Shown here: piece by piece, positions 49,533 through 56,734 of the stretch
How the letters are laid out: each line of letters begins with the position of its first letter
Numbering within the stretch: position 1 is the stretch's first letter
Assembly (NCBI GenBank): GCA_015060225.1
Contig: SUYX01000012.1
Location: forward strand, 1 to 56,756
Source of the DNA: Bacteroidales bacterium
GTDB taxonomy: Bacteria > Bacteroidota > Bacteroidia > Bacteroidales > UBA932
Direction: 5' to 3'
Length of the DNA: 56,756 nucleotides
Notes under the pieces: model-generated
Database searches by the model: none
What the model was told of the DNA's origin: nothing
Seen by the model: only the letters and a program-made list of their open reading frames with translations
Translations under genes and position numbers: made by a program

Positions 49533-50573
49533 ATGGCTAAAGAAAGTGTAGAAACTCCAAATGCAGCTGAAGTGAATGCAGCCAAACTCAAAGCATTGCA
49601 GGCTACTTTGGACAAGATTGAGAAGGATTTTGGAAAGGGGACAATAATGAAGCTGGGGGATCAGCCAAAATGGGATGTATCTGTTGTGCCAAGCGGTTCC
49701 ATTGCATTGGATTGCGCATTAGGTATAGGGGGTTATCCAAAAGGAAGGGTTATTGAAATTTACGGACCTGAGAGCAGTGGTAAAACCACTCTTGCAATAC
49801 ATGCAATTGCCGAGGCGCAGAAGACAGGCGGCATTGCCGCAATAATTGATGCCGAGCACGCATTTGACCGTACCTACGCCAAAAAACTTGGAGTAAATGT
49901 AGATACATTGCTCATCTCTCAGCCCGACAACGGCGAGCAGGCCCTTGAGATTGCAGACAGCCTCATCCGTTCAGGTGCAATTGACATAATTGTAATAGAC
50001 TCCGTTGCAGCCCTTACCCCTAAAGCAGAGATTGAGGGTGAGATGGGAGACTCAAAGATGGGCCTTCAGGCACGCCTTATGAGCCAGGCATTGAGGAAAC
50101 TCACCGCCAACATAAGCAAGACCAACACCTGCTGCATCTTCATAAACCAGTTGCGTGAGAAGATTGGTGTAATGTTCGGCAACCCTGAAACCACAACCGG
50201 AGGTAACGCCCTCAAATTCTATGCATCTGTAAGACTGGATGTAAGAAGGACAACCCAATTGAAGGACGGCGAGGATGCTACCGGTAACCGTACACGCGTA
50301 AAAGTTGTAAAGAACAAGATGGCTCCCCCTTTCAAGAAGGCTGAGTTTGACATCCTCTACGGTGAGGGCATCTCCAAAGTTGGTGAAATCCTCGACCTTG
50401 GAGTTGAATTTGACATCATAAAGAAGAGCGGCAGCTGGTTCAGCTACGGCGACAGCAAAATCGGCCAGGGGCGTGAGGCAGTAAGGCAACTCCTCATTGA
50501 CAACCCTGAATTTGCAGAGGAAGTTGAGGCAAAAGTACGCGAAGCATTGGCAAGTGCCGGCGAACAGGACTAA
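49533..50573 (+). CDS. recA: Recombinase RecA
   Basis: A 346-residue DNA-strand exchange protein. Walker A is GPESSGKTT (78-86), the Walker B is [12 protein letters not shown], the loop region [17 protein letters not shown] is intact, and [21 protein letters not shown] marks loop L2. The C-terminus is short and acidic. It is monocistronic, between its own promoter and a terminator at 50597-50629. Confidence 0.97.
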
Positions 50574-50717: not shown

Positions 50718-50893
50718 ATATTACTTATTTGTATATAAAACTACAACTGTCGCCTTCCCTTTAAATGTATTGTGGAGTTTCTTCTGTGTTACTCTGCCGG
50801 AGACATCATAAAATCATCTTCCCGATAATATTCTTTCTAACAAGTTTTACACACCCGACAAAATATCCTTTAAATCAGTATCATAATAATAAC
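50718..50893. other. Gene-free stretch after the palindromes
   Basis: I see no gene or strong hairpin. It contains CCCGATAA (50822) and CCCGACAA (50854), near copies of the word that is over-represented in the window. Confidence 0.4.
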
Positions 50894-51051
50894 AAATCAC
50901 TTCGGGGGACGACCTATATCTACTGCTCACGCAGAGTGCGGCTCCCGGCCTTCCGTTCCACACGGCCTCCGCCGGGCATCTGATGATGCCTTATTACGTC
51001 ATTCCTTCGGAATAACTCGCAACCGTCGAATGAGGTCCCCCTACGTGATTT
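50894..51051. repeat. Structured 158-bp element, copy 1
   Basis: The ends pair over 14 bp: AAATCAC, TTC, GGGGGAC with GTCCCCC, TAC, GTGATTT. Inside are CCCGGC (50944)/GCCGGG (50971) enclosing CCGT (50953)/ACGG (50962), a GCATC-TGAT-GATGC hairpin (50976-50989), and ATTCC-TTC-GGAAT (51001-51013). No ORF is convincing. A near-identical copy lies at 51971. It could be a mobile repetitive element or an RNA; the strand is undecided. Confidence 0.8.
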
Positions 51052-51067
51052 GTTGCTTTACTAACAT

Positions 51068-51571
51068 CTATTCAACACAGTCCGATCCGGCTCTTATTTG
51101 AAAAATATCTAGGACAAACTCTACAAAACTGTTATTTATGACATCTGGTTCGTACGTTTCATTATATTCAACATCGTGTTCCCAAAATACAATTGGGCAA
51201 CTTCCGTTTTTATTAATTTTCCTTGTATCAAAACAAGCAAAATTACCAAAGCCATCATGATAAAACGGAACGATATAAGAATACATAGCATTTTCAGACT
51301 CACAATGTTCAAAGTTATATGTAGCTGTCAAATCATAACGCGTATCTTTAGAGTTAAAAGAAATCCCAAGAATCTCATAACCATCAAAATAAAATCCATT
51401 GCTTAGGGATAATAAATACTTGTAATCTAATGGTAACTCAATGCTAAATCTTTTCTCAAATAGTTTAATATATTCACACGGTACAGGTGGATAAAGTTCT
51501 GTTTCTTCAGAAGGTAAGTTTTTGAGCATAGCATATATGCTATCTATTTGGTCTTTTATTCCAGTTGTCAT
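51068..51571 (-). CDS. SMI1/KNR4 (SUKH) family protein, likely immunity protein
   Basis: A 167-residue soluble protein. The SUKH core is visible: PPVPCEYIKLFEKRFSIELPLDYKYLLSLSNG (residues 27-58), FDGYEILGI and a C-terminal VPFYHDGFGNFACFDTRK. SUKH proteins are the common immunity proteins of polymorphic toxins. It overlaps the end of a truncated Rhs gene by 32 bp, the usual toxin-immunity layout. AT content is high. It is flanked on both sides by the structured 158/168-bp elements. Confidence 0.85.
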   Translation of the reverse strand: MTTGIKDQIDSIYAMLKNLPSEETELYPPVPCEYIKLFEKRFSIELPLDYKYLLSLSNGFYFDGYEILGISFNSKDTRYDLTATYNFEHCESENAMYSYIVPFYHDGFGNFACFDTRKINKNGSCPIVFWEHDVEYNETYEPDVINNSFVEFVLDIFQIRAGSDCVE

Positions 51572-51898
51572 ATTCGTATTTCCAATACTCTACTCTTGCT
51601 TTATCAAATTGTTTTCTATCAATATTACTTTTGTTATTATACTCAGGGTGATTTGTCTTATAGTAGCCACCGCTGGCAAGGTCATAGTATCCCTCATCAT
51701 TGAGGAGGTATTTCTGTACTCCTGATTCATATACGATATTGCCGCAGTAATCCTTTTGGCTTATTGCACCGGATATTGTGTATACTGTCCTGAGTTTCTC
51801 CCCTTCAGCACTGTAAAAGAACTTGATGGAGCTGCCGTTGGTAAAGGTCACCTCCTCTGGCAAATTTAACAAATTGTAGCGGATATTGCCAATGCCTC
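51540..51898 (-). pseudogene. Truncated Rhs-family tip with C-terminal toxin region
   Basis: About 110 residues are readable from 51872, and the same frame extends a few codons further to a TAA near 51900 (reading RGIGNIRYNLLNLPEEV), without a plausible start. The core YNLLNLPEEVTF, DYCGNIVYE and YLLNDEGYY is that of Rhs-repeat-associated proteins. The last 40 residues (YYKTNHPEYNNKSNIDRKQFDKARVEYWKYEYDNW) are basic and likely a variable toxin tip; I do not recognise its fold. An intact Rhs protein is over a thousand residues, so nearly all of the shell is gone and this is probably an orphan cassette. Confidence 0.72.
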
Positions 51899-51970
51899 TG
51901 TGTTATTCTCTTCCCGACAGAAAATAACCAGTCGTCCATTAATCAGGAACTAATTTCTCTAAATAACAAC

Positions 51971-52138
51971 AAATCACTTCGGGGGACGACACAGTCTCCT
52001 CTATATCTACTGCTCACGCAGAGTGCGGCTCCCGGCCTTCCGTTCCACACGGCCTCCGCCGGGCATCTGATGATGCCTTATTACGTCATTGCTTCGCAAT
52101 AACTCGCAACCGTCGAATGAGGTCCCCTTACGTGATTT
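51971..52138. repeat. Structured 168-bp element, copy 2
   Basis: It matches copy 1 (50894-51051) apart from a 10-bp insertion after GGGGGACGAC and three substitutions. Two of the three change one base pair of the small hairpin together (ATTGC-TTC-GCAAT at 52088-52100 in place of ATTCC and GGAAT). The third turns a G-C of the end stem into a G-T. Flanks also resemble each other for about 20 bp. Confidence 0.8.
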
Positions 52139-52313
52139 GATCTTTACTTACATTTATTCCGTAAATTTCAAAGTTCCTATAAAAAAATTCCTTTTTATTT
52201 GAATAACTTCGCAAAGCTTATTCCTCCAAAGCGGACAACTGCATCATACGAATCAGTTATTTCAAGTTTATGGGGCAAATACATTACTGGTATTGTATCT
52301 CCAATGCGTGTGT

Positions 52314-54437: not shown

Positions 54438-54693
54438 GGGAACAAAACGGCACCAAAATATGCCCGAGACACCGAAAAAGTGCACCGTGGGAACAAAACG
54501 GCACCAAAATGTGCCCGAGACACCGAAAAAGTGCGCTGCGGGAACAAAACGGCACCAAAATATGCCCGAGACACCGAAAAAGTGCACCGTGGGAACAAAA
54601 CGGCACCAAAATGTGCCCGAGACACCGAAAAAGTGCGCTGCGGGAACAAAACGGCACCAAAATGTGCCCGAGACACCGAAAAAGTGCGCCATC
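54438..54693. repeat. Five tandem 51-bp units between trpS and dnaG
   Basis: Units start at 54438, 54489, 54540, 54591 and 54642. Each begins GGGAACAAAACGGCACC and contains ATGCCCG or GTGCCCG and GACACCG. Units 1 and 3 are identical, as are 2 and 4, so a 102-bp pair was duplicated; unit 5 is one base longer. All three plus-strand frames and at least two minus-strand frames stay open because 51 is a multiple of three, so reading frames through them are not evidence of coding. Each unit has an imperfect GGGAACA/TGTGCCC palindrome. Confidence 0.93.
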
Positions 54694-54730
54694 GGGAGTA
54701 AAAATACCATTAAGGCACCAAAACAGAACT

Positions 54731-56734
54731 ATGATTGACAGAGGCACTGTAGACAGAATCCTGGATACCGCCCGAATAGAGGAGGTTGTGAGTGATTTTG
54801 TCTCCCTTAAGAGAAGGGGGGCAAACTACATTGCGTGCTGTCCGTTCCACCACGAGAAGACTCCGAGTTTTTCCGTTTCACCGAGCAAGGGTATCTACAA
54901 ATGTTTCGGCTGCGGAAAGGCAGGAAGTGTTGTGAGTTTTGTGATGGAACACGAGCAGATGAGTTATGTGGAGGCGCTCAAGTATCTGGGACACAAGTAC
55001 GGCATTGAGGTTAAGGAGAAGGAGGAGAGCGAGGAGGATGTGCGGCAGAGGCTCCACCACGAGTCACTGCTCATTGTGAATGATTTTGCCCAGAAGTTCT
55101 ATACAGAGCAGCTGCTTCACAGCGAGGAGGGGATTGCAGTAGGTCTGAGCTACTTTAAGGAGCGCGGCTTTACAGACGGGACAATAAACAAGTTCCTGCT
55201 GGGGTACGCCCCCAACAAGCGGAGGGAGTTTACCCACAATGCCCAGAGGAAAGGGTACAAGAAGGAGCACCTTGTAGAGGTTGGACTCACCATTGAGCGT
55301 GAGAATGGAGAACTTCTCGACCGTTTCTATGAAAGGGTGATGTTCCCGATAAGGAGCATCAGCGGAAAGGTTATAGCCTTTGGAGGCAGAAAACTCAGGG
55401 GAGACAAGGAGGTTGCAAAATACATAAACTCACCTGAGAGTGAAGTTTATGTAAAGAATAAGGTCCTTTACGGAATATACGAGGCAAAGCAGGCAATTGC
55501 AAAAAACCAGAAGTGCTATCTGGTTGAGGGTTATACAGATGTGATTTCCTTCCATCAGGCAGGTGTGGAGAATGTTGTGGCCAGCAGCGGAACCTCCCTC
55601 ACCACAGGGCAGATTCAGCTGATAAAGAGGTTCACCAACAATGTTACCGTACTTTATGACGGTGACTGGGCCGGAATAAAAGCATCCCTTCGTGGAATAG
55701 ACATGCTCCTGGAGGAGGGGCTGGAGATTAAGGTAGCCCTCTTCCCCGACGGAGAAGACCCCGATTCCTTTGCCCGCAAACATACAAAAGAAGAGTTGAT
55801 GGAATTCCTCACCAACAACGAGGAGGACTTCATTAGTTTCAAGCAGAGGCTCCTGGCACAGGAACTTACCAAAGATCCGCTCCAGAGGGCAAAACTGATT
55901 GGAGAGGTTGTAAACAGCATAGCGGTAATTCCTGATGCCATAGTGAGGGCTGTATATATTGAGCAGACCGCTGCCAAACTCAACATTAAGGAGGAATTGC
56001 TGCAGCAGGAGGTAGCAAAGCTCCGTCACAAGAAACAGAGCGACACCTTCTACCAGCAACAGAGGGAACAGGAAAGGCTGGAGAGGTTGCAGGGTATCCA
56101 ACAGGCAGATACTACACCGTTCACCCAGGGAGGAGAGCAGGGGGGGCAGCGCAACATCCCCGGGTTTGTTGTAAACACCTACTGCAGCGAGGCTGAAAAG
56201 GAGATACTTTACTATTTGCTCAAGTTCGGTTACCTTCCTATACATGTAGATGATGATTTCATGTACGGGGCAGAGAGGGATGACGAGCAGACTGTAGCAC
56301 AATATATCCTCTCACAGCTGCAGAACGACGAGCTGGAGCTGCAGAACCTCCAGTACAAGGAGATATTCAATGAATACTTCCAGCTGAAGGAGCACGAAAG
56401 CGACAAAGTGCTGAGATACTTTATGAACCACCCCAACAAGGAGGTTTCAAACATAGTTGCAGACTTGTTTATACAACCATACACAATTACAATACAGCAG
56501 TTCAGCAAATCACTTATTCCCGAAAGGAATGTACTGGGCAGAGTTGTACCAAAATCAATCCTCATATACAAGGCAAAGGTTACCGCACAGGCAGCAATGA
56601 ACCTTACCGAGGAGTTGGGACGGGCCCAGAAGGAGAAAAATGTGGAACTGCAGAACGAACTTATATCACAACTGACAACTCTTATGCAGGTGAGGAACTT
56701 CTTCTCCAAGGAGTTGAACAGGATAATATTATAA
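54731..56734 (+). CDS. dnaG: DNA primase
   Basis: A 667-residue primase from the ATG at 54731 (MIDRGTVDRILDTARIEEVV). The zinc finger is Cys37-His40 with Cys58-Cys61 (CPFHHEKTPSFSV, KCFGCGKAG). The RNA polymerase core contains the TOPRIM EGYTDVISFHQAG and YDGDWAGIKA. The C-terminal part (about 430-667), rich in Gln and Lys, is the DnaB-binding domain. The frame continues open upstream through the 51-bp repeats but homology starts at the chosen ATG. The remaining 22 bp of the window are empty except for a TGTCGGGA word. Confidence 0.96.
   Translation: MIDRGTVDRILDTARIEEVVSDFVSLKRRGANYIACCPFHHEKTPSFSVSPSKGIYKCFGCGKAGSVVSFVMEHEQMSYVEALKYLGHKYGIEVKEKEESEEDVRQRLHHESLLIVNDFAQKFYTEQLLHSEEGIAVGLSYFKERGFTDGTINKFLLGYAPNKRREFTHNAQRKGYKKEHLVEVGLTIERENGELLDRFYERVMFPIRSISGKVIAFGGRKLRGDKEVAKYINSPESEVYVKNKVLYGIYEAKQAIAKNQKCYLVEGYTDVISFHQAGVENVVASSGTSLTTGQIQLIKRFTNNVTVLYDGDWAGIKASLRGIDMLLEEGLEIKVALFPDGEDPDSFARKHTKEELMEFLTNNEEDFISFKQRLLAQELTKDPLQRAKLIGEVVNSIAVIPDAIVRAVYIEQTAAKLNIKEELLQQEVAKLRHKKQSDTFYQQQREQERLERLQGIQQADTTPFTQGGEQGGQRNIPGFVVNTYCSEAEKEILYYLLKFGYLPIHVDDDFMYGAERDDEQTVAQYILSQLQNDELELQNLQYKEIFNEYFQLKEHESDKVLRYFMNHPNKEVSNIVADLFIQPYTITIQQFSKSLIPERNVLGRVVPKSILIYKAKVTAQAAMNLTEELGRAQKEKNVELQNELISQLTTLMQVRNFFSKELNRIIL

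Follow-up and report, generated by a model that had tools for sequence, protein, structure and literature searches.

The element described here has its nearest counterparts, as far as kinds of repeat are concerned, in the ERIC, BOX and REP sequences of other bacteria; by analogy, it would work most like ERIC and BOX, and it sits where REPs sit. ERIC sequences of enterobacteria (~127 bp) are described as dispersed intergenic repeats that form one long hairpin and reportedly act as RNA on neighbouring transcripts (PMC2267715; PMC3049150). Our element is likewise dispersed, intergenic and composed of one long hairpin, a likeness by description. ERIC copies have the sequence of the whole palindrome in common, whereas in our element only the core sequence is common to the copies. 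The BOX, RUP and SPRITE repeats of pneumococcus are modular, structured and transcribed, and an internal module of BOX is predicted to fold alone (PMC3049150). The second repeat inside the copies treated below (family 2) resembles such an internal self-folding module, again by description and in another phylum. The outer stems of BOX are not known to be private to each copy.

REPs are characterised in PMC3733652 as palindromes that lie downstream of genes, where the neighbouring ORFs are co-directional or convergent, and its section 6 gives the CGTC REPs an 8-9 bp stem, an unpaired terminal CGTC tag and a 4-5 nt loop. The downstream position is similar in our element, and a CGTC precedes the palindrome of its inner hairpin P3 on the plus strand; this CGTC, however, overlaps a paired region, and with ~110 nt and a 26-bp outer stem the element falls outside the CGTC REPs as that section defines them. 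TIR-type repeats by Y1 (RAYT/TIRYT) transposases, with hairpin arms of ~20 bp, occur in the same genomes, but their arms are nearly constant (TTACGTYGTCTTTTTGTACAA) and their core is unrelated to the element. Integron attC sites have conserved ends and a variable middle. Our element shows the reverse, with variable ends and a nearly invariant core, and is thus not of the attC type. Palindromic candidate RNAs of Bacteroidetes (PMC8040213) can be set beside it by description only, and the element family was not found in the open-access papers searched. The absence of a known family in the original prediction agrees with Rfam 15, which gave no family in the window at gathering thresholds and none at E<=1 in six loci.

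The window, i.e., the whole stretch of DNA that was analysed, comprises 56,756 nt of a Bacteroidales genome (assembly GCA_015060225.1, contig SUYX01000012.1). Two near-identical copies at 50894-51051 and 51971-52138 (158 and 168 bp) had been pointed out in it, and in a global alignment they indeed differ by three substitutions and one 10-bp gap. The 14-bp end stem postulated for them is present, but it is longer: the arms at 50891-50910 and 51035-51054, found by an inverted-pair search, are 90% complementary over 20 nt. Copy 1 thus extends over 50891..51054, with the minus strand as RNA sense, in which 51035..51054 forms the 5' strand and 50891..50910 the 3' strand of this outer stem P1. Within copy 1, on the same strand, lie the conserved core segment CTCATTCGACGGTTGCG (51018..51034, from the family alignments), which in RNA sense forms the 5' sides of the internal loop and of P2, the inner hairpin P3 (50998..51016) and an 83-nt second repeat (50914..50996) that was detected by a repeat search. 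Copy 2 (51962..52147, minus strand) reaches 55.6 bits with the covariance model R2; its P3 (52085..52103, minus strand) reads GTCATTGC TTC GCAATAAC on the plus strand, and its 83-nt repeat occupies 52001..52083 (minus strand, repeat search). Predicted folding gave -62.5 kcal/mol for the plus strand (z -5.3) and -73.7 kcal/mol for the minus strand (z -5.4), each more stable than 200/200 shuffles.

Two of the three substitutions had been read as a paired swap (ATTCC/GGAAT to ATTGC/GCAAT). They do fall on one helix pair of P3, at which two-sided changes also occur in 7/20 copies of class B and 7/22 of class A (see below). The third does turn G-C into G.T on the plus strand; on the minus strand, which is the favoured RNA strand, it creates an A.C mismatch and therefore lends no support to selection there. 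The 10 bp ACAGTCTCCT, present in copy 2 and absent from copy 1, had been called an insertion. Since they are part of the normal core of the family, the better reading is that copy 1 lost them, as did the copy at G000:C11:131 (G000 being the window's own genome). Copy 1 is accordingly shortened in its core, and the core of copy 2 is complete.

As for the surroundings, copy 1 sits between the 3' ends of recA (49533..50573, plus strand; gene call and RecA relatives), its convergent left-hand neighbour, and of a SUKH/SMI1-KNR4 immunity-type gene (51068..51571, minus strand; PF09346, E 2.9e-18), directly after the stop codon of the latter. A 110-aa Rhs tip fragment (51540..51872, minus strand) shows a weak match to an LHH nuclease that stays below the cut-off (PF14411, E 0.0013), and its first part resembles, by eye, the Rhs proteins of contig C11 of G000. 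Copy 2 lies between this fragment and a gene whose start resembles a lipoprotein signal.

Dispersed bacterial repeats are usually recognised by the sequence that their copies have in common; in this family the outer half can be recognised only by its pairing, and BLASTN with a window copy therefore finds mostly the ~35-nt core and not the element. In G000 (2.15 Mb, 64 contigs, 86% complete) such a search gave 21 matches, among them both window copies and one on C11 in full and one shorter C11 copy in two pieces, the others covering the ~35-nt core and little more; read from the loci, each core match proved to be enclosed by inverted arms of its own. A 60-nt core query had matches in 6/61 genomes, namely 5/37 of the genus and one marginal case. 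The covariance model R2, built from 22 copies, returned 54 matches, some of them partial, in 5/39 genomes of the genus (G000 17, G008 12, G024 11, G015 9 and G022 5). In a sample of the family (199 genomes) its matches came from G000, G015 and G022, G008 and G024 presumably being outside that sample, and among 393 genomes of the order and 395 of the phylum from G000 only; these last two runs used stricter filters that recovered 9 of the 17 matches in G000, so that weak copies elsewhere could be missed. Neither a blastn search of plasmid and phage collections with a 69-nt core nor a search of viral contigs for one exact DNA pattern of the element gave a match.

In a kdsA tree, which covers 25 of the 39 genomes (14, including G021, are outside it), the five bearers group with G006 in a single clade (support 1.000); within this carrier clade G006 gave no R2 match. 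A restriction to one clade, known from metagenome-assembled genomes (MAGs), together with the absence from G006 is unusual for an RNA that is important to the cell. The best named relatives by RecA are Bacteroidales gut MAGs, one from water-deer caecum (96%), one from rabbit (Lapin, 89%) and Candidatus Merdivivens pullistercoris (86%). In the family sample, matches of 28-29 bits to the inner hairpin alone were obtained in four genomes of another genus. The two loci of this genus (g218) that were read, L275 and L276, show a hairpin resembling P2/P3, with a GCTA/TAGC variant, in other GC-rich contexts; a relation to the element is plausible.

Read in RNA sense, i.e., as the reverse complement of the window, the element consists of P1 (~26 bp), an internal loop, P2 (UUGC/GCAG), a GA/GAA internal loop, P3 (8 bp) and a variable tip. 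The first loop is conserved as 5' YUMAUUCGACGG / 3' AGAGGAGACU, its sides being given as AUUCGACGG and AGAGGAGACU; the GA/GAA loop becomes two Watson-Crick pairs in a few copies, leaving a bulged G. By the inner end of P1, two classes can be distinguished, A (GGGGAC/GUCCCC) and B (GCCUGC/GCAGGU), both ends being variable themselves. Mean pairwise identity is 90% (B) and 86% (A) in the core and 41% (B) and 50% (A) in the arms. The arms of one copy nevertheless pair with each other in 92% (B) and 87% (A) of the cells, compared to 54% and 59% for arms taken from different copies; P1 hence differs in its letters between copies and pairs within each, which amounts to very strong covariation.

Covariation was scored on 42 of 47 elements, 20 of class B (alignment A3) and 22 of class A (alignment A4); the 47 do not include the two window copies and two other copies with an insert, and L049, L091, L094 and L097 (orthologs of rows kept) as well as L032 (odd stem) were left out. 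A joint alignment of both classes (A2) was set aside because the 3' arm of class B was shifted in it by one column. In class B, 94.7% of the cells are paired, two-sided changes occur in 27/38 pairs and the covariation score is 0.607 (0.168+-0.015 when shuffled, 0.10-0.15 when slid); the corresponding values for class A are 83.7%, 29/38 and 0.437 (0.172+-0.014 and 0.12-0.21). In the outer 10 pairs of P1 in class A, only about half of the cells are paired in the register used, partly as a result of indels. Sliding the partners by 1-3 columns lowers pairing to 38-57%. None of 500 shuffles reaches the observed value by any measure in either class, fractions that are not true p-values because the copies are related by an unknown tree and the shuffle nulls take no account of this kinship.

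Selection on structure, as proposed in the original prediction together with the expectation of tens of copies with covarying pairs, is thus borne out by 54 covariance-model matches and two-sided changes in most pairs. Both outcomes that had been named as speaking against it, namely that only the two copies exist or that pairs are broken as often as kept, failed to appear. A stem that diverges in its letters and stays paired speaks for a functional RNA structure and not for a device that swaps toxin genes.

The question whether RNA or a DNA cruciform is the selected form, which had initially been left open between the two, can be approached through the mismatches. Those in the arms of the minus strand comprise 38 G.U, 10 A.C and 58 others (G.U versus A.C, p 6e-5). 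The first two should be about equal if double-stranded DNA, or both strands alike, mattered, and the excess therefore favours one RNA strand. These numbers replace an earlier, looser count of 76 G.U and 24 A.C on the minus strand (76 A.C and 24 G.T on the plus strand) that took in conserved pairs and misregistered stems. Three positions, one of them in class B only, are moreover conserved as G.U on the minus strand and would be A.C on the other; among them are the class B pair 21:91 (18/20 copies) and a U.G of P3 (42/42 copies). If C to T changes were biased towards the non-template strand, this could in part produce the excess of G.U, but hardly the conserved positions. RNA made from the reverse complement is thus better supported by the strand evidence than a DNA cruciform. 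Taken together, we consider it probable that we are dealing with a dispersed family of structured RNA elements, which in the reverse-complement orientation of the window would be transcribed as the 3' ends of mRNAs.

The position of the copies relative to genes was scored with heuristic gene calls (longest ORF) for 45 elements, two more having one side only and four orthologous pairs being counted twice among the 47. The flanking genes are convergent in 20 cases, co-directional and in the sense of the RNA in 20, co-directional and antisense in 5 and divergent in none; divergent spacings, in comparison, account for 5/21 in the window and for 31/116 when 13 named relatives, with similar calling, are added. 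The bias of co-directional pairs (20 to 5) has a p of 0.004 and becomes 18 to 5 without the second member of the four orthologous pairs. For the right-hand gene in RNA sense, the stop codon lies <=30 nt from the set end of the element in 24/40 cases, and the genes beside ten G000 copies, labelled by eye, resemble ordinary housekeeping genes.

A bidirectional intrinsic terminator which is replaced and re-grown at each gene end could also be expected to lie behind stop codons and where genes converge, and at L013 G006 does have an ordinary terminator where G000 and G024 carry the element, in opposite orientations. If an intrinsic terminator is defined by a GC-rich hairpin and a U-tract, the element is not a canonical one because U-tracts are missing in 37/47 copies: the longest T run 15-60 nt past the core is <=4 in these and 5-8 in the other 10. 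At L039, furthermore, the element was added next to an intact terminator, and the invariant internal loop would be superfluous, so that we regard termination as an improbable explanation. For a structured RNA at the mRNA 3' end, in contrast, the long P1 duplex would protect or define that end, and the invariant internal loop would represent a putative binding site for a host protein.

A comparison of orthologous sites indicates that new sites can gain the element, which is in this sense mobile. At L005, the element is present in G000, whereas in G024 (left flank 95% identical), G006 and G008 both the element and the arms are missing; TTTACC stands at both ends of the filled site, a possible direct repeat, the other sites being too diverged to show one. 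At L039, G024 has the element beside a terminator; G006 and G022 possess this terminator in intact form and are without the element. Remnants are found as well, in G024 at L007 (one arm plus the beginning of the core) and in G000 at L028, and partial tandem duplications run from the tip of the core hairpin through an arm into the flank (G000:C36:32662-33013 and G024:C41:16175-16321). G024 at L008 had at first sight looked like a pre-insertion state with an inverted target duplication. We rejected this; a deletion between CAT repeats is more likely there because L007 and L008 share arms and L007 leaves its remnant in G024. The few 5'-truncated copies seen do not decide on reverse transcription, and a reverse transcriptase family has matches in two of the five bearers, G000 and G008.

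One could further imagine that a mobile element entered the loops of existing terminator hairpins and that the private arms are those of the host. The arms are indeed private to most loci, and coreless hairpins stand at two orthologous sites, in G006 at L006 (25-bp arms) and in G008 at L009. The bare sites at L005 and L039, however, lack arms, 342 kb of partly overlapping loci contain just two hairpins with arms of >=15 bp and loops of <=20 nt, the neighbouring copies L007 and L008 share their arms, and the arms have a weak common consensus. On account of the bare sites and the rarity of long palindromes with short loops we rejected this origin, to which we would give next to no weight.

The same presence and absence at L005 and L039, the TTTACC at L005 and the avoidance of promoter regions would suit a miniature transposon acting at the level of DNA (MITE or IS200/IS605/REPIN type), in which the hairpin serves single-stranded DNA transposition and the RNA fold is incidental. 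A Y1 transposase gene, moreover, has matches in all six clade genomes and in 1/8 others tested. Yet one RNA strand is favoured by the asymmetry of G.U over A.C and by the conserved G.U pairs, the genome G006 lacks the element although it contains the Y1 gene, and variation is greatest at the outer ends, which is not the pattern of transposon ends. A MITE would have terminal inverted repeats in common with an autonomous element; the ends of our copies differ from one another, and no autonomous copy was noticed. In the four genomes in which the Y1 flanks were read by eye (G000, G024, G006 and G008; <=450 nt on each side), the gene has a different hairpin upstream in 4/4 and the element is absent from both sides, a finding at odds with a REPtron or TIRtron. 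The Y1 flanks and the reverse transcriptase matches thus yielded no transposase tied to the element, and a DNA transposon appears rather unlikely to us, even if it is the alternative that deserves most attention. Under the favoured reading of a 3'-end RNA family, the copies would have spread, arms included, as a non-autonomous element by a mechanism that we did not find.

The window copies differ from a short family member by an extra ~80 nt that are flanked by P3 and by the distal P2 strand. They are chimeric, because this extra piece is a repeat in its own right: as a query, the 83 nt of family 2 gave 24 matches in 8/39 genomes of the genus, including G005, G006 and G035 (short and weak in the latter), which carry family 2 without the first element. 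Stand-alone copies of family 2, which is represented outside the window by the loci L285-L298, are mostly intergenic, with a terminator-like hairpin after them in 8/21 places checked, and 8/18 predicted pairs show a two-sided change among 14 sequences.

The placement of the two window copies had led to the suggestion of a repeat that promotes the exchange of Rhs toxin/immunity cassettes by recombination. Four G000 copies do lie in Rhs/immunity regions (two in the window and two on C11, the latter likewise located after small genes that come behind Rhs proteins). Three of the four are chimeric and almost the same, and the chimeric form recurs with a similar right arm next to small ORFs in G008:C56. 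Beyond this chimeric subgroup, just one of the 47 copies (C11:3706) has, at a distance of <=1.5 kb to the left or right, a stretch homologous to an Rhs protein encoded in its own genome, so that the expected frequent proximity to rhs loci is not seen and cassette exchange is not supported as a general function; nothing links the conserved core to recombination either. We hence hold this explanation to be very improbable. Within the chimeric subgroup, such identical 3' ends may recombine. The likeness of the window and C11 copies is best read as duplication or transfer of the 3' ends of immunity genes, and by their sequence the window copies look as if they had travelled with such 3' ends in a duplicated Rhs region. 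Within the proposed family of 3'-end RNAs, family 2 would have entered the core first, followed by the duplication or transfer of the immunity-gene ends.

The private arms could have arisen by slow compensatory change, by selection against cross-pairing of mRNAs or by templated copying from arm to arm, all of which are candidates. A speculative extension, to which we assign a small chance, is that modular mobile RNA hairpins populate the 3' ends of one clade, each combining an invariant protein-binding core with a private outer duplex, where the arms are kept orthogonal by selection against cross-pairing or by templated copying and modules such as family 2 or the P2/P3 hairpin are swapped between element families. 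In any case, some 50 natural copies in five genomes constitute a natural experiment in which the letters of the helix are free to vary while those of the internal loop stay fixed, and a protein or process that reads the loop could therefore be found. The copies further demonstrate nested, modular repeats in gut Bacteroidales.

Several other repeats were encountered. The Y1 gene (RAYT-like, MGNHAHFL) carries the hairpin repeat TTACGTYGTCTTTTTGTACAA upstream (G000:C62, L267; G024:C13, L268; L269; L270; also L088 and L093), and similar hairpins occur elsewhere. A third repeat of ~220 nt with long arms, containing TTGACGGCGAACTCCTCCTTTTAGCC, is present at unrelated sites (L103 in G024:C53 and L148 in G006:C164), and L025 contains a stretch related to it. 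Among the 10-mers of the window, the commonest theme is TTCCCGACA / TGTCGGGAA, with TTGTCGGGAA occurring 9 times on both strands; the theme recurs near gene starts and ends in many flanks and is perhaps an uptake or promoter motif. Lastly, a tandem repeat at 54460-54740 of the window, upstream of a primase-like gene, reads GTKRHQNVPETPKKC in one frame.
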